From positions 992,001-1,056,000 of the forward strand of contig NZ_CP074149.1 in NCBI RefSeq assembly GCF_019968765.1: a stretch of DNA of 64,000 nucleotides, read 5' to 3'. Shown in pieces: positions 11,024 to 19,656 of the stretch. Within the stretch, counting starts at the first letter, position 1. Each line of letters starts with the position of its first letter. The notes below the pieces were generated by a model. It searched no databases. It was not told where the DNA came from and saw only the letters and a program-made list of their open reading frames with translations. The translations under genes were made by a program, and so were the position numbers. The DNA is from Enterobacter sp. JBIWA008. GTDB taxonomy: Bacteria; Pseudomonadota; Gammaproteobacteria; Enterobacterales; Enterobacteriaceae.

Positions 11024-11069
11024 ATTCGTAATGCGAAGGTCGTAGGTTCGACTCCTATTATCGGCACCA
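11024..11069 (+). other. P22-type attachment core: 46-bp 3' end of tRNA-Thr (thrW)
   Basis: These 46 bases match, as I remember it, the 3' half of thrW and the P22 attachment core: anticodon arm CGCATTCGTAATGCG-like start, T arm GGTTCGACTCC and the acceptor end ATCGGCACCA. The 5' half of the tRNA is absent, so this is a duplicated attachment site and not a tRNA gene. It lies between the phage fibre genes on the left and an integrase on the right, which points towards it, as expected where two elements using the same site sit in tandem. Confidence 0.8.
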
Positions 11070-11083
11070 GTCATATCAAGTAG

Positions 11084-11877
11084 TTACGCATCATTCGTAC
11101 CTTCCTTATTTTCACTATGGGACAAATTTGGGACAGAAGACCCAAAAATAGAGTCTATTTGCCGTGCATGCTCAGTCAGGTGGTTAGGTGCAAGGTGAGC
11201 ATATCGACGAACCATTTCGATTGATTCCCAGCCGCCCATTTCCTGCAAAACAGAAATCGGAACTCCAGCCTGAACAAGCCAACTTGCCCATGTGTGTCTC
11301 AGGTCATGAAAACGGAAGTCTTCAATTCCTGCTCGTTTTAATGCAGCCCTCCATGCGGTGTTAGCGTCGTAGCGCATCTTTCTCACTACAGGTGATTTAG
11401 TTCCATCTGGTTTTGTGCTGCTTTCCTTGTAAACAAACACCCACTTGTGGTGATTGCCGATTTGCTTTTTCAACACCCGGCAAGCAGTATCATTCAGTGC
11501 CACGCCAATGGCCTGATTCGACTTGCTCTGCTCAGGGTGAATCCATGCAACCTTTCTCTGCATGTCTATCTGCTGCCATTCCAGATTGATGATGTTCGAG
11601 CGTCTTAAGCCAGTAGAAAGCGCAAACTCTACGACTGACTTAAGCGGCTCCGGACATTCATCAATCAACCTTCTCGCCTCGTGAGGTTCAAGCCATCTGA
11701 TACGCTTGTTCTTAGGCTGAGGCACTTTGACGATCGGAGCCTTATCCAGCATCTTCCATTCACGTTCAGCGGCCCTGAGAAGCGCCTTAATGAATGAAAG
11801 GTGAGTTGCTTTTGTGGCTACCGCTGCAGGCTTTGGTTTGTATACTGGAGGAAGCTTTCTTTTCTTGCGACATGCCT
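11084..11877 (-). pseudogene. P22-type tyrosine integrase, 5' end lost at IS element
   Basis: The remaining frame encodes about 264 residues and continues open into the IS left end at 11877; intact relatives have about 380, so the N-terminal DNA-binding arm is missing. The catalytic domain is complete: TGLRRSN with the first Arg, [10 protein letters not shown] with His and Arg, GGWES, and [10 protein letters not shown] with the tyrosine nucleophile. It lies 14 bases from the attachment core and reads towards it, as in P22-like elements. An internal ATG at 11752 could at most give a 222-residue fragment. The element is probably unable to excise by its own integrase. Confidence 0.85.
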
Positions 11878-11895
11878 TGAATCGCCACGGATAAT

Positions 11896-12764
11896 CTAGA
11901 CACTTCCGAGCCGTTGATAATACTGGTTTTCATATTCTGTCGGTGACATCTGATTGCTCGAACCATGCCGACGCTTACTGTTATAAAACATTTCGATGTA
12001 ACCAAAAATATCGCTGCGGGCTTCTTCCCGCGTTCCGTATATCTTTTTCTTTATCCGTTCGCGTTTCAGCAACTGGAAAAAGCTTTCTGCAACCGCATTA
12101 TCGTGACAGTTACCGCGACGGCTCATGCTCCCCTCCAGGCCGTGTAATTTCAGGAACGACTGACACTCATGGCTTGTTTACTGACTGCCCTGGTCCGAGT
12201 GAACCAGCACCTGTTTTTGGGGATTACGCCGCCATACAGCCATCAGCAGTGCGTTCAGGACAATGTCCTTTGTCATCCGGGATTGCATTGACCAGCCGAT
12301 AATTTTGCGTGAGAACAGATCAACAACCACGGCAAGATACAGCCAGCCCTCGTGGGTCCTGATGTAGGTTATGTCCGTTACCCAACGCTCATCCGGAGCA
12401 TCCGGATTGAACTGTCGCTGGAGCCTGTTGGGCGATACGATACTGGCCTCGCCTTTACGTGCCGCGGACTCCGGTATCCGACCTGAGCCTTTATCCCGAC
12501 ACGTTTCATCAGTCGCCAGACTCTGTTCACTCCGCACTGTTGCCCGCTGTCCCGCAGATCCAGATGGATTTTGCGATAACCATAGACGCATCCCGATTCC
12601 AGCCAGAACTGTTTAATCTGTCCTGTCAGTCTCAGGTCTGCCTGATGGCGTTGTGAATGCGGCTGCTGAAGCCAGGCGTAAAAACCACTGGGATGAACAT
12701 CCAGCACCCGACAGAGCAGGCGAACAGGCCAGCAACAGGTGTTGTCACGGATAAAGGCGTACCT
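11896..12764 (-). pseudogene. IS3-family transposase orfB (DDE), frameshifted and with internal stop
   Basis: Three pieces make up the DDE catalytic part. The first frame (12378-12707) runs through GVNRVWRLMKRVGIKAQVGYRSPR and then goes out of frame. The second (12178-12591) has ARKGEASIV, WVTDITYI with the first Asp and VHSDQGSQ with the second, then a TAA stop at 12178-12180 where relatives have Tyr. The third (11896-12126) has DNAVAESFFQLLK with the catalytic Glu. The two lesions make this copy inactive in cis. Confidence 0.8.
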
Positions 12765-13042
12765 CAGTCGGACAGCTTTGCGAAGTACGCCGCGGCTTTT
12801 TTTAATATGTCCCGTTCGTCGGTAACCCGCTTCAGCTCTTTCTGGAGACGGCGGATCTCGGCCTGAGCATCTGACTGTTCTTTATTAGTGGATGAGTCCG
12901 GACCGTACTTCTTTATCCAGGCGTAAAGGCTGTGGGTAGTGATATCGAGACGTGTTGCAACGCTGGCAACAGAATAACCGCGATCAACAACCTGTTTGAC
13001 TGCTTCAATTTTAAACTCTTCGGGATAACGCTTACCGCTCAT
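12764..13042 (-). CDS. IS3-family transposase orfA
   Basis: The product has 92 residues from the ATG at 13042; a GTG at 13048 is an alternative. It is a helix-turn-helix protein of the IS3 type: KRYPEEFKIEAVKQVVDRGYSVASVATRLD then HSLYAWIKKYG, followed by a leucine-zipper-like coiled coil (AEIRRLQKELKRVTDERDILKKAAAYF). It appears intact. Normally a -1 frameshift fuses it to orfB, but orfB is broken here. Confidence 0.85.
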   Translation of the reverse strand: MSGKRYPEEFKIEAVKQVVDRGYSVASVATRLDITTHSLYAWIKKYGPDSSTNKEQSDAQAEIRRLQKELKRVTDERDILKKAAAYFAKLSD

Positions 13043-13181
13043 GGGCACCTCTCTTTAAGCCATCTTAAATGACTCTTAGATGTCTGTTAAACCCGTGGCG
13101 ATTCACATTTCCGCACGTCTTGAGCTGTAATCGAATTCATGAATATCACTATATTAAGCGGCCGCTGTGGTGGAGATAAGA

Positions 13182-13210
13182 TTGCGGGCGGGTATGGAAA
13201 GAGTTATAAA
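13182..13210 (+). promoter_or_regulatory. Probable sigma-70 promoter of the RT operon
   Basis: TTGCGG at 13182-13187 and TATAAA at 13205-13210 are separated by exactly 17 bases. Transcription would start near 13217, upstream of the GAGGG ribosome site at 13231-13235 and the ATG at 13241. The promoter lies inside the longer open reading frame that begins at 13139, which argues for the shorter start. Confidence 0.6.
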
Positions 13211-13240
13211 AGCTTAGAGGATAGTTTAGCGAGGGATATC

Positions 13241-14518
13241 ATGAACCGGCAGCCGTTTACTTCATCAGCACTTAAACGAAACTTAAGTGAAAGTGAGAAG
13301 GCTTATTATTTCAAAAAAAATAATTCCGCTGAGTTAGAATTGCTAATTAGTGATGCCGTTTTAATTGCTAATGAGAATTTTCGTTCTGGTGTTAGTGTAA
13401 AGAAACTAAACATTAAAGGACGTTGCGTTTACACTGCTTCATGTTTGAAAGAAAAAATAATACTTAGACATTGTAACGCAAATCTAAAATGTATTGAATC
13501 ACTTCTTCCCAAGCAAAGAAATACAATAATTAATGAGTTGAAAATTTATTTGAAAGAAGGCACTCCATTCAAAATATATCGTTTGGATATAAAATCCTTC
13601 TTTGAGTCAATTGATCTGCCACAACTTTTTCAATGCTTACATAATGAAACACGTCTGTCTAGACATACAAAAAATTTGTTAGAATGGTATCTTAAGTCGT
13701 GTGAGAGAATCCACTCTTCAAAAGGATTGCCTAGAGGGTTGGAAATTAGCCCTATGTTATCAGAATTGTACTTGGCACAATTTGATAATAGTGTTCATAG
13801 GCACCCAGATGTATTTTATTACTCAAGATTTGTAGATGATATGGTGATCGTTTCAAGTGGTTATGAATGTGAAGCGTCCTTTATGAATTTCATACAAGAT
13901 TTATTACCTAAGGGATTGTCATTAAATAAAAATAAGTTGAAAGTTTCTCCGTGTATACCAAAGAGAAGTAAAGGTATTAATAGGCAGAATAAATTGCTTC
14001 ATGAATTTGATTTTCTTGGGTACTCATTTTCCATAATAGACACCCCTCTGAATAAAGATGGTGAGATTAATAGCTGTTATAGAAAGGTAATTGTGAATTT
14101 ATCTAAGTCTCGCCTGAAGAAGATTAAAAATAGAATAGCTAGATCTTTTTACTCTTATCATATCAATGGTGATTTTAAATTACTTTTAGATAGAATTTCT
14201 TTTTTGACAAGCAATAGGGATTTAAATAGAAAAATAAAATCTTCAAGCTCTTTGGAGAAAAGTAAGATAAGCACTGGCATCTATTACAGTAATTCGAGAT
14301 TAGATGCTGACTCTATATCCCTAAAACAATTAGATGACTTTTTGCTGTATTGTGTAAAAACTAATACTGGGCGTTTGAACAGCATTATAAAAAAACCTTT
14401 TAATTTGAAGCAAAAAAAAGAATTGCTAAGAAATAGTTTTAGAAAAGGCTTTTTAAATAGAGTATACAGAAAGTATAACTTTAAGCGCTATACTGAGATT
14501 ACAAAAATATGGCTATAA
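13241..14518 (+). CDS. drt3a: Reverse transcriptase Drt3a-like (UG3 type), DRT type 3 defence system
   Basis: The product has 425 residues from the ATG at 13241, which has GAGGG five bases upstream; an open extension to 13139 lacks a ribosome site and covers the promoter. It is a group II/retron-like reverse transcriptase fold: RLDIKSFFESID (motif A, Asp116), GLPRGLEISPMLSELYLAQFD (motif B) and FVDD at 197-200 with both catalytic Asp, then KLKVSPCIP and FLGYSF. About 29% GC contrasts with the host. It overlaps the next RT gene by 10 bases. Two unlike RTs in one operon is the layout of DRT type 3 (UG3 plus UG8), an anti-phage system. As I recall published work, Drt3a copies an ACACAC template in the system's RNA into poly(GT). 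The UG class was not verified by profile search. Confidence 0.75.
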   Translation: MNRQPFTSSALKRNLSESEKAYYFKKNNSAELELLISDAVLIANENFRSGVSVKKLNIKGRCVYTASCLKEKIILRHCNANLKCIESLLPKQRNTIINELKIYLKEGTPFKIYRLDIKSFFESIDLPQLFQCLHNETRLSRHTKNLLEWYLKSCERIHSSKGLPRGLEISPMLSELYLAQFDNSVHRHPDVFYYSRFVDDMVIVSSGYECEASFMNFIQDLLPKGLSLNKNKLKVSPCIPKRSKGINRQNKLLHEFDFLGYSFSIIDTPLNKDGEINSCYRKVIVNLSKSRLKKIKNRIARSFYSYHINGDFKLLLDRISFLTSNRDLNRKIKSSSSLEKSKISTGIYYSNSRLDADSISLKQLDDFLLYCVKTNTGRLNSIIKKPFNLKQKKELLRNSFRKGFLNRVYRKYNFKRYTEITKIWL

Positions 14519-16527
14519 AGAAAAACATTAAACTCGATAAGAAAGATTATCTCAGGGCTTTACTATGTGATACACAGCCGGGTGATTGTCCAATTATTTT
14601 TTCAAATGATGGGCTATATATAAACTTAACCGAGCATGATAGAGTCAGTAATGACTCATCAAGTTACACTCCTGTTTCTTCTTTCTTAAAAAAAATAATT
14701 AACCCTGGTTTAGACTCTTCTATTGGTGTCGAAAAGCAAGCCCAAGCAAAGAAAAAACAAAGCTCTCCGTTTGGCTATTGCATAGTGAAAGATGCCTTTA
14801 GCCAAAGACATCTTTCTTTAGTTCACCCTAGATCTCAAATTAATTATTCGGAATTTTACAAAACTTACTCATCCGTTATCACACTAAATACATTGAAAAG
14901 TAATTTTTCAATTCGTTATCCCCGTAAAGTAGCTAACTCTTTCTTTTTGTATGAGAATTCTGCATCAGAAAAATACAAAGGAGAGGATATCGAAACCACA
15001 AAAGATGAGTTAATGAGGAAATATTCATCCTCTTATTTTACTTATGGTGGGTTCAACAGGATATATAAACTATTTCAAAGTAAAATGTTTATTGGTCTTG
15101 AGAAGAGATTCTCATTTATGTGGATGTTGGATGTATCGCATTGTTTTGACAGCATATATACACATTCTATTTCTTGGGCGTTAAAAAATAAATCATTTAT
15201 CAAAAAGCATGTTGCACACAGCAATCAGTTTGGTCAAGAATTAGATAAGCTAATGCAGCGTAGCAATAATAATGAAACAAATGGGATACCTATTGGTTCA
15301 GAATTTAGTAGGGTTTTTGCAGAATTAATATTTCAGAGAATTGATTGTAATATTGAGTCATGCCTTCTGAGTGAACATGGATGGGTTAATAATAAAGATT
15401 ATGCTATATTGAGATATGTAGATGATTTTATTGTTTTTTGCAATAGTGAATCAAGCGCCGAAATTATTACAAAAATCATTAATGTTAAGTTAAATGAATA
15501 CAATCTTCAGTTGAATGTAAATAAACTTAAGAAGTATTCTAGACCATTTTGTACTAGCAAGACAGGTTTGATTATCAAAGTTAATGAATTAATTCGTAAC
15601 CTAGAGATTAAGTTGTATGAAAAAAATGATGGTGGCTTCACATTAAATAAAATAAGAAGTAAGCATGACTTAAAAATATATGTAATTAATCATGTCAAGT
15701 CTATATGCATTGAAAATAAAGTATCTTATGCTGATGTTTCTTCATATATAATATCTTCTCTTTCTAAAAGACTAATATCAATGATTGATATGTTACAAAC
15801 CCAAAAAAATGAAGGGGATTTAGAAGTAACAAAAAGAATTAAGGACTTGATTTTCACAGTAACCGATATAATGTTATTCTTCTTCAGTGTTAACCCAACT
15901 GTTTCATCATCTTATAAATTATCAAAGACGATGTTTGTTGTTAATAACTATTTGAATGATATCTCTAGTGACTATAGTAGTATTTTTATGACTTCTATAG
16001 TGAATACTGCTGAAACCATTAATTTTGGTGAGAATGATAATGGTTTATTTATTGATGATTTCATTTCAATTGAAAAAGTTAATTTGATTTTAGCTGCTAC
16101 TTTTTTTGGGGATAATTACCTCGTGAGTGCCGATTTTTTTCATGGGATTGTACATAAAAAGAAATTAGATTACTTTACTATAATCTCCTTGTTATTCTAT
16201 TTTAGAAATAGGAGATCATTCCAGGAATTGAAATGCATAATAGAGAATAAAATAAAAGAGCTATTAAGCCATAATATTGATTTACTACAATCATCGGAAA
16301 AAGCGCATTTATTTTTAGATGTTTTGTCATGTCCATTTGTCTCAATAGAGACAAGACGATTTTTATATAGAAAGTATCTTAAAAACTTTGAGCCAACACT
16401 TAACAGAAGTCACCAGGAAATTGAGAATGATTTGCAGTCACTTCTCCAAACATATTGGTTTGTCAAGTGGGATGAGTTAGATATTGTGAAAATGATCGAG
16501 AAAAAAGAATTGAAAGAAAGCTATTAA
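14509..16527 (+). CDS. drt3b: Reverse transcriptase Drt3b-like (UG8 type), DRT type 3 defence system
   Basis: The product has 672 residues, starting inside the end of the first RT gene with no separate promoter visible. The N-terminal RT domain shows SFMWMLDVSHCFDSIYTHS (motif A, Asp208), NGIPIGSEFSRVFAELIFQRID (motif B) and LRYVDDFIVF (YVDD, 303-306). About 300 C-terminal residues form a long helical region with no family I recognise outside this group. The position after a 425-residue RT and the size fit Drt3b. In the reported system, as I recall it, Drt3b makes the complementary poly(AC) strand without a nucleic acid template, and the two RTs and the RNA form one complex. Very AT-rich, like the first gene. 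Class is by architecture, not by profile. Confidence 0.75.
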   Translation: MAIKKNIKLDKKDYLRALLCDTQPGDCPIIFSNDGLYINLTEHDRVSNDSSSYTPVSSFLKKIINPGLDSSIGVEKQAQAKKKQSSPFGYCIVKDAFSQRHLSLVHPRSQINYSEFYKTYSSVITLNTLKSNFSIRYPRKVANSFFLYENSASEKYKGEDIETTKDELMRKYSSSYFTYGGFNRIYKLFQSKMFIGLEKRFSFMWMLDVSHCFDSIYTHSISWALKNKSFIKKHVAHSNQFGQELDKLMQRSNNNETNGIPIGSEFSRVFAELIFQRIDCNIESCLLSEHGWVNNKDYAILRYVDDFIVFCNSESSAEIITKIINVKLNEYNLQLNVNKLKKYSRPFCTSKTGLIIKVNELIRNLEIKLYEKNDGGFTLNKIRSKHDLKIYVINHVKSICIENKVSYADVSSYIISSLSKRLISMIDMLQTQKNEGDLEVTKRIKDLIFTVTDIMLFFFSVNPTVSSSYKLSKTMFVVNNYLNDISSDYSSIFMTSIVNTAETINFGENDNGLFIDDFISIEKVNLILAATFFGDNYLVSADFFHGIVHKKKLDYFTIISLLFYFRNRRSFQELKCIIENKIKELLSHNIDLLQSSEKAHLFLDVLSCPFVSIETRRFLYRKYLKNFEPTLNRSHQEIENDLQSLLQTYWFVKWDELDIVKMIEKKELKESY

Positions 16528-16544
16528 TTTGATAGAAAAGAATA

Positions 16545-16789
16545 GTGGTCAGTTTCAAAATACTTACGTCATCGTTGTCGATATAATTTATATTGACAAT
16601 GAAGGCGATTTCGCTGGAGCTGAAATCGGCTTGAACGCTTAGACTCAAGCTAAAAAAACTGCTTGAGACCAAAGCCTAATTTATTAGCCTTTGGATTTTC
16701 AGAATCAGTTGAGAGTAATTACTGGCTGTTTATTGCTTAACCAATACAGTTAGTGGTGCTTACACACCTGATGTTGAGAAACTGACCAC
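16545..16789 (+). ncRNA. Candidate DRT3 non-coding RNA with ACACAC template
   Basis: GTGGTCAGTTTC at 16545-16556 and GAAACTGACCAC at 16778-16789 are a perfect 12-bp inverted repeat closing a 245-base region that starts 17 bases after drt3b. Inside are four hairpins: 16572-16585 with 16589-16602 (14 pairs, two G-U), 16606-16612 with 16622-16628, 16644-16650 with 16661-16667, and 16669-16680 with 16683-16694 (one C-C mismatch). ACACAC occurs at 16762-16767, 10 bases before the closing arm. A weak promoter (TTGAAA 16510, TAGAAA 16533, spacing 17) would start at about the first base of the closing stem. The fold is read from the sequence; identity as the DRT3 RNA is inferred from position and the ACACAC tract. 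Confidence 0.7.
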
Positions 16790-16983
16790 ACCCATACTAC
16801 CTGTTGTTTGCCTTAAAAACTGTACACGACTGAATACGAATCATCATCTGGGGGCATGTGTGGGGGCATTTGGGGTGTGTTCCTAAAAATTATCTATTTT
16901 TTTCATGCGGTTATGCTATCGTTCCACTCCTATTATCACCCAATAAACAACATTTATTCCTTTTCAAAGAGACTAATTGCGAC
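16790..16983. other. Right end of island: G-rich repeats and no gene
   Basis: I see no gene here. The stretch contains TGGGGGCAT twice, 12 bases apart (16849 and 16861), a form often seen near integrase attachment regions of enterobacterial islands, then an AT-rich run and the degenerate attachment core at 16921. It ends at the stop of the chloramphenicol acetyltransferase gene. Confidence 0.5.
16921..16940 (+). other. Degenerate thrW attachment core (island right end)
   Basis: GTTCCACTCCTATTATC here matches GTTCGACTCCTATTATC of the core at 11048-11064 in 16 of 17 bases, and a shortened acceptor end (ACC) follows. It has the same orientation. Together the two copies bracket the integrase, IS and RT genes (about 5.9 kb). 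The remaining 5' half of the core is not recognisable, so this is a remnant or a core-only copy. Confidence 0.5.
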
Positions 16984-17661
16984 TCAGCGATAACTTTCTT
17001 CCGACTGCTCCGATAAACCATCACACATCTCCTGCAACTCATTAAACATCCTTGCCACATGGAAACCATCGCACACAGAATGATGGACCTGCACCGCGAG
17101 CGGCAGCAGCACTTTTCCATCCTGATCGTAGTATTTTCCAAAGGTGAACATAGGCGAAAAGAAGTTCTTCATATGAGCAATATTCATCGTAAAGTTGGTA
17201 AACGTTACCCAGGGAATCGATGATACGAAAAAGACATTTTCCCGCGATGCTTCCTTCGGCCAGTAAGACAGGTTATTGCCATAGCGGGCAACATCTTCTG
17301 CATACGTGTTCTGGAAGTGATGAATATTACCGTCGAAGTGGCTCCACAGTGACGAAAAGGTCTCCGTTTCAGGATGGAAAATGGTATAGCTTGGATGAAT
17401 TTCATTCCAGATGACAAGCTCATTGTCCTTCATGGCCATACGGAATTCCTGATGCCGATTCATGATTTTAGACAGGAGGGAAATAATCGTCGGGTAAAAC
17501 TTCCAGCCGACCACTTTGATATGTTTTCGCAGTGCGGTGATGTCGATCAGAACCGTTTGGTTAATTGTACACTCAGCAAATGACTGGAATACCTCAAAAT
17601 GCTCTTTCCTGGCCCAACGAGATAAATCAACAGGCGTATAGGCCGGGGCTGTTTTTTTCAT
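16984..17661 (-). CDS. catA: Type A chloramphenicol O-acetyltransferase
   Basis: The product has 225 residues from the ATG at 17661 (AAGG seven bases upstream); a seven-residue longer start exists. It transfers acetyl from acetyl-CoA to the 3-hydroxyl of chloramphenicol and works as a cytosolic trimer. The family signature HHSVCDGFH lies near residues 193-201, with the catalytic His at about 194 and the structural Asp at about 198; [17 protein letters not shown] and FTFGKYY are also typical. The length fits the 213-225 range of type A enzymes. It sits alone at the island boundary and is not flanked by IS elements or integron sites. Its subtype is not clear from the sequence, and a chromosomal, intrinsic copy is likely. 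Confidence 0.85.
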
Positions 17662-17724
17662 TTTATAACCTTTGATTATCAATTACCTAAAGGATTAAGG
17701 GCCAGAAAAAGCTGCATAGTCATT

Positions 17725-19656
17725 TCAACCGTATCTAATCTTCCTGTCAATCTCAGCCTGTGGTTTTCCGAACAGATATCCCTGCACGAGATCGCAGCCA
17801 AGCGCCTGAAGACGTTCAAGCTGCGCTTCGGTTTCAACGCCTTCTGCAATGACGCTCATATTGAGGCTCTTCGCCATACCGGTAATCAATTTAACGATAT
17901 TAAGCGCATCGTCTTGCGTGGATATCGGATTCACAAAGGATTTGTCTATTTTAATTTTATCAAAGTTAAGTTCACTCAGCCTGGAGAGCGAAGAATACCC
18001 CGTCCCGAAATCATCGATGGAAATTTTTACACCCAGCGAACGAAGCTTTTTAAGAATAGTGATCGGCATATTGCTGTCACTGAAGAGCGAAGACTCTGTC
18101 ACCTCCAGCTCGAGTCGACTGGCCGGTAGCCCCGTCTCTTTCAGGATAGTCTGCACCATCGTGGTAAATGATTTATTACCCAACTGAATAGGTGAGACGT
18201 TTACCGAGATCCTCGCCGGAACCGCCCAGGAAACCGCTTCCCGGCAGGCAAGCTCAAGCACGGTTTTGCCGATCTGATTGATCATCCCCGTTTTTTCAGC
18301 GACTGAAATAAAGTAATCAGGTGACAGTATCCCCTTCACCGGGTGTATCCAGCGAATCAGCGCTTCATAGCCGTAAATTTCACTGCTGAATGAATCGACA
18401 ATTGGCTGGTAATAAACAACGAATTCGCGGTTATCGATCGCCAGTGCCATATCATGTTCAAGGGTTCTGCTTTCCTGTAACTTTTGCAGCATCCATTGAC
18501 GGAAAACTTTTATCTGCTGTGAGCCCTCTTTTTTGGCTTCGTAGAGCGCCAGATCGGCAAATTTATAAAGATAATCAGAGCGTCGTTCATTATCAGATAA
18601 AACGATACCCACACAGGTGGCAATTTTTATCAGCTGGTTATTAATCGTATAGGGCTGACTGATTTGATCGCTGATTTCTTTAGCGCGGGAAACGGCCGCG
18701 TTTTCGGTTAATCCGCTGGAAAGAAGGGCGAATTCGTCTCCGCCTAAACGGTAAAATGTATCAGTGGCGCTACTCATTGAGGTGAGGCGTCTGGATACCT
18801 GATTTAACAGCAAATCTCCGGCATCGTGGCCATAGGTATCGTTGACCTCTTTGAACCGGTCTAAATCAAATAACATCACCGTGACGGGGATGTGGTTTTT
18901 ATCTGCCAGAAGATTAATTTTGTTGAGATCGTCCCAGAAGAACAGGCGGTTTTTCATACCAGTAAGGGAATCATGATAAACATCATATTCCAGCTTGGCA
19001 TTCTGAATTTGCAGCGTTTCTTTTGATATCTGAAGTTCATCAGCAAGGCTTTTAACCTGCATGTGTGCTTTTAGAATGTTTTTATTCTGGTAGATCATTA
19101 AGAAACCAAGGATGAAACTTAATATCACCAGGAGTAGCGAAAGTGCCGAATAAATATAATAAAGAATCTGGATTTTTTTATTAGATTCATTAACTGTATT
19201 AATGTCTTTTGTTAATGCTGTTGCTGAAAGCTGGCTCAGCGGCGCATCAAGCTCATGCATATTTTTCAGGTATGCCTGTAACTCTGGGTGGCTCATTTTT
19301 TCAAGATGGCTGTCCAGATAGGTTAGTATTTTCTCTAAGCGTGAAGCGAGCTCTTGATGCGTTTTATCGCTGTCAATATAGCGACCTAAATCTCCCCCCT
19401 TCATTAAATCGCCCTGGCTGAGCATAATTTCAAGACGCATGCGGACCTGGTCTATCGTAACGTCATCGGTATCGGTTGCGTATAGACCAATCCATGATTC
19501 AAAACGGTAATACTCTGATACCAGTTGTGCCACGGACCAGGACTCAGTGTATTGAGTCAGTTTTTGCAATTCCTGCTGACGATCGTAAACAAGGAATGCA
19601 ATATATCCTGTCGTGATAAAAAGAGAAAAAATGATACCAACCAGTATCCTGTTCAT
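17725..19656 (-). CDS. Membrane GGDEF-EAL protein (c-di-GMP turnover)
   Basis: The protein has 643 residues. Two membrane segments (about 5-25 and 165-190) frame a periplasmic helical sensor of about 140 residues. A GGDEF domain follows (intact GGDEF at 305-309, FDLDRFKEVNDTYGH upstream) and then an EAL domain (EAL at 431-433, DDFGTGYSSLSRL, EGVETEAQ). Both catalytic signatures are intact, so it could make or degrade cyclic di-GMP. AGGAGAAC precedes the ATG. It follows the periplasmic molybdopterin-fold gene by 18 bases on the same strand, and the two are likely one operon in which the periplasmic partner feeds a signal to the sensor domain. Confidence 0.85.
   Translation of the reverse strand: MNRILVGIIFSLFITTGYIAFLVYDRQQELQKLTQYTESWSVAQLVSEYYRFESWIGLYATDTDDVTIDQVRMRLEIMLSQGDLMKGGDLGRYIDSDKTHQELASRLEKILTYLDSHLEKMSHPELQAYLKNMHELDAPLSQLSATALTKDINTVNESNKKIQILYYIYSALSLLLVILSFILGFLMIYQNKNILKAHMQVKSLADELQISKETLQIQNAKLEYDVYHDSLTGMKNRLFFWDDLNKINLLADKNHIPVTVMLFDLDRFKEVNDTYGHDAGDLLLNQVSRRLTSMSSATDTFYRLGGDEFALLSSGLTENAAVSRAKEISDQISQPYTINNQLIKIATCVGIVLSDNERRSDYLYKFADLALYEAKKEGSQQIKVFRQWMLQKLQESRTLEHDMALAIDNREFVVYYQPIVDSFSSEIYGYEALIRWIHPVKGILSPDYFISVAEKTGMINQIGKTVLELACREAVSWAVPARISVNVSPIQLGNKSFTTMVQTILKETGLPASRLELEVTESSLFSDSNMPITILKKLRSLGVKISIDDFGTGYSSLSRLSELNFDKIKIDKSFVNPISTQDDALNIVKLITGMAKSLNMSVIAEGVETEAQLERLQALGCDLVQGYLFGKPQAEIDRKIRYG

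Follow-up and report, generated by a model that had tools for sequence, protein, structure and literature searches.

Positions 13241-16789 of the window, the whole 64,000-nucleotide stretch of Enterobacter sp. JBIWA008 DNA that was analysed, very probably hold, judging from sequence, a complete DRT3 locus, consisting of the reverse transcriptase genes drt3a and drt3b and a conserved, predicted non-coding RNA (ncRNA) with an ACACAC template. The locus is predicted to provide defence through double-stranded (dTdG)n/(dCdA)n DNA. This kind of system is already known, its mechanism having been published in 2026, and the locus adds another DRT3. The mechanism that an earlier note on this DNA described, in which alternating GT/AC DNA is made by one RNA-templated reverse transcriptase and one working without a nucleic acid template, is in print (PMC13174585). 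DRT3 is already known as a case where a DNA sequence is dictated by a protein instead of a nucleic acid.

Reverse transcriptase genes

The two reverse transcriptases noticed earlier are encoded on the + strand by open reading frames at 13241-14518 (drt3a, 425 amino acids) and 14509-16527 (drt3b, 672 amino acids). As expected of DRT3, drt3a lies immediately 5' of drt3b, with an overlap of 10 nucleotides, and the motifs named in the earlier note were found where it had placed them, FVDD at residues 197-200 of the first product and YVDD at residues 303-306 of the second. Each protein has a single Pfam match, RVT_1. Profile comparison against the UG3 and UG8 families, set beforehand as the test that could refute the assignment, placed the first product with Drt3a, a UG3-type enzyme (PADLOC, E 9.7e-131; NCBIfam equivalog NF041747, 359.9 bits against a cut-off of 200), and the second with Drt3b, a UG8-type enzyme (PADLOC, E 8.2e-207; NCBIfam equivalog NF041748, 621.1 bits against a cut-off of 350). 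The start codon of drt3a at 13241 is also the RefSeq start of the same gene in E. coli relatives.

Among solved DRT3 chains, the first product aligns near full-length with PDB 9z6y_A (1e-54), and the second matches 9z6y_H (1.8e-114) and 26cz_A. The entries 9z6y and 9z6z are taken here, as a probable guess, to be the DRT3 system of Deng et al. (2026), and 26cz_A appears to follow the residue numbering of EcoDRT3b once 108 is subtracted. The locus resembles EcoDRT3 in the order of Drt3a, Drt3b and downstream ncRNA, in the ACACAC template, and in having the protein-primer tyrosine, the R241 equivalent and YVDD (Wang et al., 2026, PMC13174585). By alignment, Y672, R268, D208 and D305 of the present Drt3b correspond to the C-terminal priming tyrosine (Y666), R241 and the catalytic aspartates, respectively. 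The Drt3b chains align near full-length (E 2.1e-77) and differ at the adenine gate, which is Asp26 here and Glu22 in EcoDRT3. With the E. coli DRT3 of Deng et al. (2026, Science), for which a 6:6:6 complex is reported and which is probably that of 9z6y, both proteins likewise align near full-length; its Drt3b ends in a tyrosine, and position 26 is Glu instead of Asp. The D26 codon (14584-14586, + strand) aligns with E22 of EcoDRT3b (26cz, minus a 108-residue tag) and with E26 of the 9z6y chain. The gate is acidic as in both solved enzymes, in the Asp form and not as Glu, and it is the sole difference from them among the active-site residues compared.

Predicted ncRNA and AC template

A structured RNA is predicted 3' of drt3b. 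The region at 16541-16795, described earlier as folded and non-coding, folds at -95.2 kcal/mol (z -10.1), a value that none of 200 shuffled sequences reached. Delimited by its closing stem, the predicted ncRNA spans 16545-16789 on the + strand, the end at 16789 given in the earlier note being exactly that of the closing stem, and DNA similarity to three divergent relatives in E. coli stops at 16792. No Rfam match at gathering thresholds was obtained anywhere in the window. The closing stem, P1, pairs a 5' arm (16545-16556) with a 3' arm (16778-16789) over 12 pairs, six of which have changes on both sides across nine sequences. No two-sided change was detected in helix 2 of the counted structure, and one was detected in helix 3. 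Covariation is claimed for the closing stem only; for the fold as a whole, the RNAalifold covariation term on alignment A2 was +0.6 kcal/mol and gave no net support. A 15-ncRNA alignment (A3) contained too many gaps for counting pairs and was set aside. When the own arms of P1 were compared with swapped arms, leaving out 34 loci with the template at most 60 nucleotides from the gene, 41 of 73 loci fell in the best 5% and 32 fell outside it, including L235, a near relative of the window, for which 15 of 68 swaps were as good.

The putative template for Drt3a, 5'-ACACAC-3' at 16762-16767 (+ strand), is predicted to lie in an internal loop between two helices. In the minimum-energy fold, a predicted stem-loop at 16713-16761 (+ strand) has its 3' strand ending right at the 5' side of the template. 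The template is drawn in the internal loop when it is held open, at a cost of 2.3 kcal/mol, and its middle bases are partly paired in the free ensemble. For a wider comparison, 107 loci were taken from 114 with a Drt3b frame above 600 amino acids and 340 bits, seven having been dropped for identical last 300 residues; some near-identical loci remain in this set, where L004, from the window's own genome, represents the window. An AC repeat of at least 6 nucleotides occurs downstream of drt3b in 106 of the 107 loci, compared with 4% of control windows (115 of 2,675). Loci whose Drt3b frame is short, split or distant, nine in number, were considered separately: such a repeat follows the frame in L239, L122, L065, L060 and L196, L051 has ACACA only, and no AC repeat was found downstream in L010 and L029 (partial genes) or in L143 (matched over profile positions 80-476 only). 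ACACAC is also present in L001, L002 and L003, whose split frames place them outside the 107. A search of viral contigs with the 15-mer around the template returned 79 stretches, four of which are known Drt3b loci by contig name (L001, L002, L003 and L110); the remainder are probably chance matches.

Genomic surroundings

The locus is strongly AT-rich, as had been stated earlier, with a GC content of 0.295 at 14001-16000 and 0.389 at 16001-18000, the remaining 30 of the 32 bins ranging from 0.438 to 0.628. The accompanying claim of an island between two thrW copies did not hold, as the intact tRNA lies about 45 kb to the left and the second copy of its 3' end is also to the left of DRT3. The intact tRNA-Thr(CGT) gene was located in the same genome at G000:C1:959639-959714, and the one further exact copy of the thrW 3' end at 11045-11069 of the window. 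No copy was found to the right of DRT3 within the window at up to three mismatches, ARAGORN reported no tRNA in the window, and direct repeats of at least 22 nucleotides in positions 1-36000 included no att pair around DRT3. The 43-kb stretch bracketed by the two thrW copies is likely a prophage and not the DRT3 locus; its last 11 kb, inside the window, look like phage tail genes.

Among the closest known parallels are DRT3 loci of E. coli P4-like satellites at thrW (e.g., NZ_CP052877.1 and NZ_CP138407.1), with 88-90% DNA identity, the Asp gate and the same ncRNA; in E. coli strain C21, DRT3 is inserted beside tRNA-Thr next to proA. In those satellites DRT3 is surrounded by an integrase (C21), a TOPRIM/DUF927 protein, ogr/Delta and, in some, Psu, whereas here only an integrase and an insertion sequence lie between DRT3 and the thrW copy, behind the likely prophage. 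The insertion sequence, an IS3-family element at 11878-13105 that has inverted ends of 13 bp and lacks a matching 3-bp target duplication, ends 135 bp 5' of drt3a and adjoins the integrase, which has 222 amino acids and appears shortened.

These features lend some weight to the reading that the locus is DRT3 by sequence and is silent or decaying, an insertion sequence with unlike flanks having replaced the original upstream region, as does the lack of any sigma-70-like promoter found on the + strand at 13040-13260, before drt3a. This reading is considered unlikely. The same promoter scan was equally empty before the genes of an E. coli relative, neither reading frame is interrupted, and the locus retains its template and closing stem. 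Moreover, the segment between the insertion sequence and the start codon (13106-13240, + strand) aligns as a drt3a leader common to relatives, including E. coli loci, with similarity beginning at 13108 in L234, L236 and L002 and at 13146-13198 in L233, L235, L001 and L003. A protein cluster at 99% identity (P0002), with 12 member sequences and 224 contigs given among the matches listed, also argues against decay.

Proposed mechanism

At the locus itself both genes are present, as are the residues for catalysis, priming and gating, the template and a closing stem that covaries. A complete DRT3 system working as the solved E. coli one does would proceed as follows. Repeated copying of ACACAC (16762-16767) by Drt3a would yield (dTdG)n, and the helices on either side may set the limits of the template. 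For the other strand, Drt3b would prime synthesis from its C-terminal Tyr672 and add dC and dA in alternation with no nucleic acid as template, selecting dC through Arg268 and dA through Asp26, which replaces Glu in this clade. Annealing of (dTdG)n with (dCdA)n would follow, and RecBCD would hold the duplex low until blocked by a phage, whereupon cell growth would stop and the phage be lost. Searches of the window's own genome for RecBCD inhibitors that might trigger DRT3 found neither lambda Gam (PF06064) nor Anti-RecBCD_p2 (PF11043).

The adenine gate

The gate residue (E22) has been reported to admit dATP and to be Asp in a substantial fraction of homologues, and an E22D variant of EcoDRT3b retained (CA)n synthesis in part only (PMC13174585). 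As E22D lowered this synthesis, Asp at the gate is not neutral in the EcoDRT3b background. The AF2 model is poor in this region, with residues 1-22 below pLDDT 50 and a block mean of 59 at residues 21-30, and the solved DRT3 chains are absent among the fold-search matches listed, an absence not counted as evidence. No test of a natural Asp-gate enzyme was found in the DRT3 literature consulted.

Across 335 Drt3b rows, the gate is Asp in 162, Glu in 171, His in one and a gap in one. This set combines the 107 loci with the 228 proteins longer than 600 amino acids out of 240, which were the best 120 of 2,110 and the best 120 of 1,869 matches; 332 of the rows are distinct, and the proteins partly coincide with those of the loci. 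The Asp label requires seven changes over the 335 rows, at least six being forced by starred FastTree branches, and five over the 107 rows, at least four on starred branches; these numbers could shrink, since the trees are quick IQ-TREE and FastTree ones in which long branches meet. Among the 107 loci, 23 have the Asp gate, and the AC template is kept in them. A gate that has changed repeatedly beside an unchanged RNA template suggests a single (CA)n product common to the Asp and Glu forms.

A Drt3b with Asp at the gate might instead make a looser or different product, such as dC-rich DNA, the strands then pairing poorly and the system acting otherwise. The lowered synthesis by E22D would favour such a product, as would position 264, near the dC switch, which is Pro in 167 of 171 Glu proteins and another residue in 143 of 162 Asp proteins of the 335-row set. 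Tested on independent pairs, the association between the gate and position 264 lacked significance (median p 0.25), and the repeated gate switches speak for a shared product, as does the kept template, which would lose its point if Drt3b made no complementary strand. A different product is held to be improbable, slightly more so than a silent locus.

Returning to the shared (CA)n product, a tentative proposal, given somewhat less than even credence, is that Glu and Asp (and His in one locus) at the adenine gate are synonyms in a degenerate protein code. The need for two complementary strands from two unrelated templating modes would pin the product to (CA)n/(TG)n, each gate having a re-tuned pocket (P264 to Ser/Ala, and residue 25). 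The locus is part of a large clade that differs at one of the two positions governing specificity and shares the RNA template, and such loci are natural test cases. Strict (CA)n synthesis by Asp-gate enzymes as well would mean that synonyms are tolerated in the protein template and that the product required of the protein partner can be read from the RNA template; otherwise the gate model would need revision.

Other reverse transcriptase groups

Models of Drt4, AbiK and group II introns also match the two proteins, more weakly. The idea that both enzymes are of a different kind (Drt4/AbiK-like, retron or group II intron) and are paired by chance is refuted at curated cut-offs and carries almost no probability. 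Drt4 reaches 113.5 bits where 450 are required, and the group II intron reverse transcriptase/maturase (TIGR04416) reaches 73.3 bits for Drt3a and 44.2 for Drt3b where 300 are required, whereas both DRT3 models exceed their cut-offs; in addition, the reverse transcriptase pair and the ncRNA co-occur. Among 5,426 E. coli genomes, 22 match the locus and 22 match the ncRNA region.

Reverse Transcriptase Genes and Published Mechanism

Two reverse transcriptase genes occupy the forward strand, drt3a (13241-14518, 425 aa, catalytic motif FVDD) and drt3b (14509-16527, 672 aa), and they overlap by 10 nt, as the earlier note had described. Its assignment of the pair to UG3 and UG8 has likewise been upheld, the first product being recognized as Drt3a by the curated profile NF041747 (359.9 bits, cut-off 200) and the second as Drt3b by NF041748 (621.1 bits, cut-off 350), with PADLOC in agreement on both. 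The closest solved chains are 9z6y_A, named Drt3a (E 1e-54), and 9z6y_H, named Drt3b (E 1.8e-114); a second solved relative of Drt3b, 26cz_A, bears only the entry name RNA-directed DNA polymerase with a SUMO tag. The drt3a start at 13241 is favored over 13139 because RefSeq annotations of E. coli relatives begin the gene at that codon. Judged by its sequence, the locus is a complete DRT3 system of a known kind, with an aspartate gate.

In the published E. coli system, EcoDRT3, Drt3a copies ACACAC into poly-(dTdG) and Drt3b produces poly-(dCdA) without a nucleic-acid template, using Y666 as primer (PMC13174585; see also the review PMC13314766), which matches the GT/AC product of one RNA-templated and one untemplated enzyme that the earlier note had named for this locus. 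In EcoDRT3b, E22 serves as the dA gate and R241 as the dC switch; the two strands anneal, with RecBCD holding their levels low, lambda Gam acts as the trigger, and loss of GreA weakens the defense (PMC13174585). Residues R71, D182, F187, R241, D278, and Y666 of EcoDRT3b correspond to the identical letters R100, D208, F213, R268, D305, and Y672 in the window, whereas the gate differs, E22 aligning with D26.

The Gate Residue and the Template Across Homologs

Drt3b loci were gathered from viral contigs, GTDB genomes, other genomes, E. coli genomes, and plasmids. Among 107 distinct full-length loci, the gate is Glu in 83, Asp in 23, and His in one. Adding 228 proteins kept from the best-listed matches of two database searches gave 335 rows, with Glu in 171, Asp in 162, His in one, and one gap, a ratio which does not represent natural frequency because both searches were seeded with Asp-gate enzymes. 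D208, F213, R268, and D305 are conserved in all 335 rows, and the priming tyrosine in 332. The Asp label requires five changes (at least four forced by starred branches) when the 107 loci are placed on a quick mixture-model tree, and seven (at least six forced) on a FastTree of the 335 rows. Proline at position 264 occurs in 19 of the 162 Asp-gate enzymes against 167 of the 171 Glu-gate enzymes, an association not significant on independent pairs in this set; its rarity beside Asp would fit a re-tuned pocket. The Drt3a motif FVDD was found in 34 of 105 Drt3a proteins compared (YVDD in 67) and is commoner beside Asp-gate (19/23) than Glu-gate Drt3b (14/81), for which shared ancestry may be the explanation.

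In 106 of the 107 loci, among them all 23 Asp-gate loci and the His-gate locus, an AC repeat 6 nt or longer lies within 260 nt after drt3b; the exception (L190) has CACAC (5 nt), 83 nt downstream of the first base of the drt3b stop codon. Controls gave 3/107 on the antisense strand, 115/2,675 in windows elsewhere in the same loci, and 175/2,140 after letter shuffling. Judged by record title, the loci include members of Pseudomonadota and Bacteroidota as well as a Synechococcus, a Treponema, a Verrucomicrobia, and a Gemmatimonadota genome. The published covariance model covers 41 systems according to its legend and 32 according to the methods (PMC13174585); no wider count was found in the available portion of that paper or by literature search. 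The most economical interpretation is that either gate, Asp or Glu, would give the same strand, since that strand's complement is still specified by the partner RNA; counting against it, EcoDRT3b E22D is only partially active (PMC13174585). The wider comparison raises a testable question: can different residues act as synonyms when a protein templates DNA? The sole His gate among the 335 rows belongs to Moraxella caprae DSM 19149 (L044; gate region TQPYHMPII), where the repeat following drt3b is CACACACAC, the AC template being kept with a third gate residue.

The Predicted Non-Coding RNA

The folded region which the earlier note had placed after the genes was borne out, with 255 nt from 16541 folding at -95.2 kcal/mol (z -10.1, equaled by 0/200 shuffles). 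A 12-bp stem (16545-16556 with 16778-16789, forward strand) closes the predicted fold, and the template ACACAC (16762-16767, forward strand) is predicted to lie between a stem-loop ending at 16761 and a helix starting at 16768. Four of its six bases show partial pairing in the free ensemble (probability of being unpaired 0.35-0.63), but keeping all six open would cost only 2.3 kcal/mol in the predicted fold. Across nine sequences, two-sided changes occur at 6 of the 12 closing pairs and 98.1% of cells pair. In a test that swapped arms between unlike loci, the 3' arm paired better with its own 5' arm than in 95% or more of the swaps for 41 of the 73 loci. The DNA match of the region stops at 16792 in three divergent E. 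coli relatives, which suggests a 3' boundary nearby. Within the RNA, CTCAAGC (16644-16650) can pair with GCTTGA upstream (16629-16634) or GCTTGAG downstream (16661-16667), giving two mutually exclusive hairpins.

Genomic Setting and Relatives

The tRNA-Thr gene thrW lies at 959639-959714 of the genome's own contig (G000:C1). Its 3' end is duplicated at 11045-11069, the right-hand limit of a 43-kb stretch in which the final 11 kb resemble phage tail genes. The exact 20-mer of this 3' end occurs twice in the genome, and the part of the window to the right of DRT3 yielded no additional copy; both copies lie left of DRT3, so that the proposed island between them did not hold. The DNA following the two copies is similar (11024-11599 against G000:C1:959669-960244, or L241:1475-2050; 70.4% over 582 columns), as if two elements lay in tandem at thrW. 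In the window, this shared DNA corresponds to the 3' portion of the integrase gene.

Rightward from the second copy follow the integrase (11084-11752, reverse strand, 222 aa), which looks shortened, an element (11878-13105) that is IS3-like by its domains, DRT3, a catA-type gene, and a GGDEF-EAL gene whose protein has its best named relative in E. mori (92% identity), which makes Enterobacter the likely host. The element has identical 13-bp inverted ends (TGAATCGCCACGG) but no matching target duplication, its 3-bp flanks being unlike, which suggests a deletion or rearrangement beside it. Its second transposase frame is seemingly scattered over several frames. The catA-type gene (16984-17682, reverse strand), directly beyond the RNA, is a predicted acetyltransferase from its profile (NF000491, type A chloramphenicol acetyltransferase family; 277.8 bits, cut-off 270).

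The same DRT3 was detected in 22 of 5,426 E. coli genomes. In the four opened, it is preceded by satellite genes that we label P4-like from gene names, and adjoins a LysR-domain fragment and paoD. In E. coli C21 the satellite begins at the tRNA-Thr beside proA, and therefore thrW fits as the address of DRT3. A Drt3b 93% identical to that of the window is encoded on IMG/VR contig 3300042922_001299 (L300/L002), close to phage-like genes and to a copy of the thrW 3' end; ACACAC is present there and both reverse transcriptase genes are split over frames, which could be decay or sequencing error.
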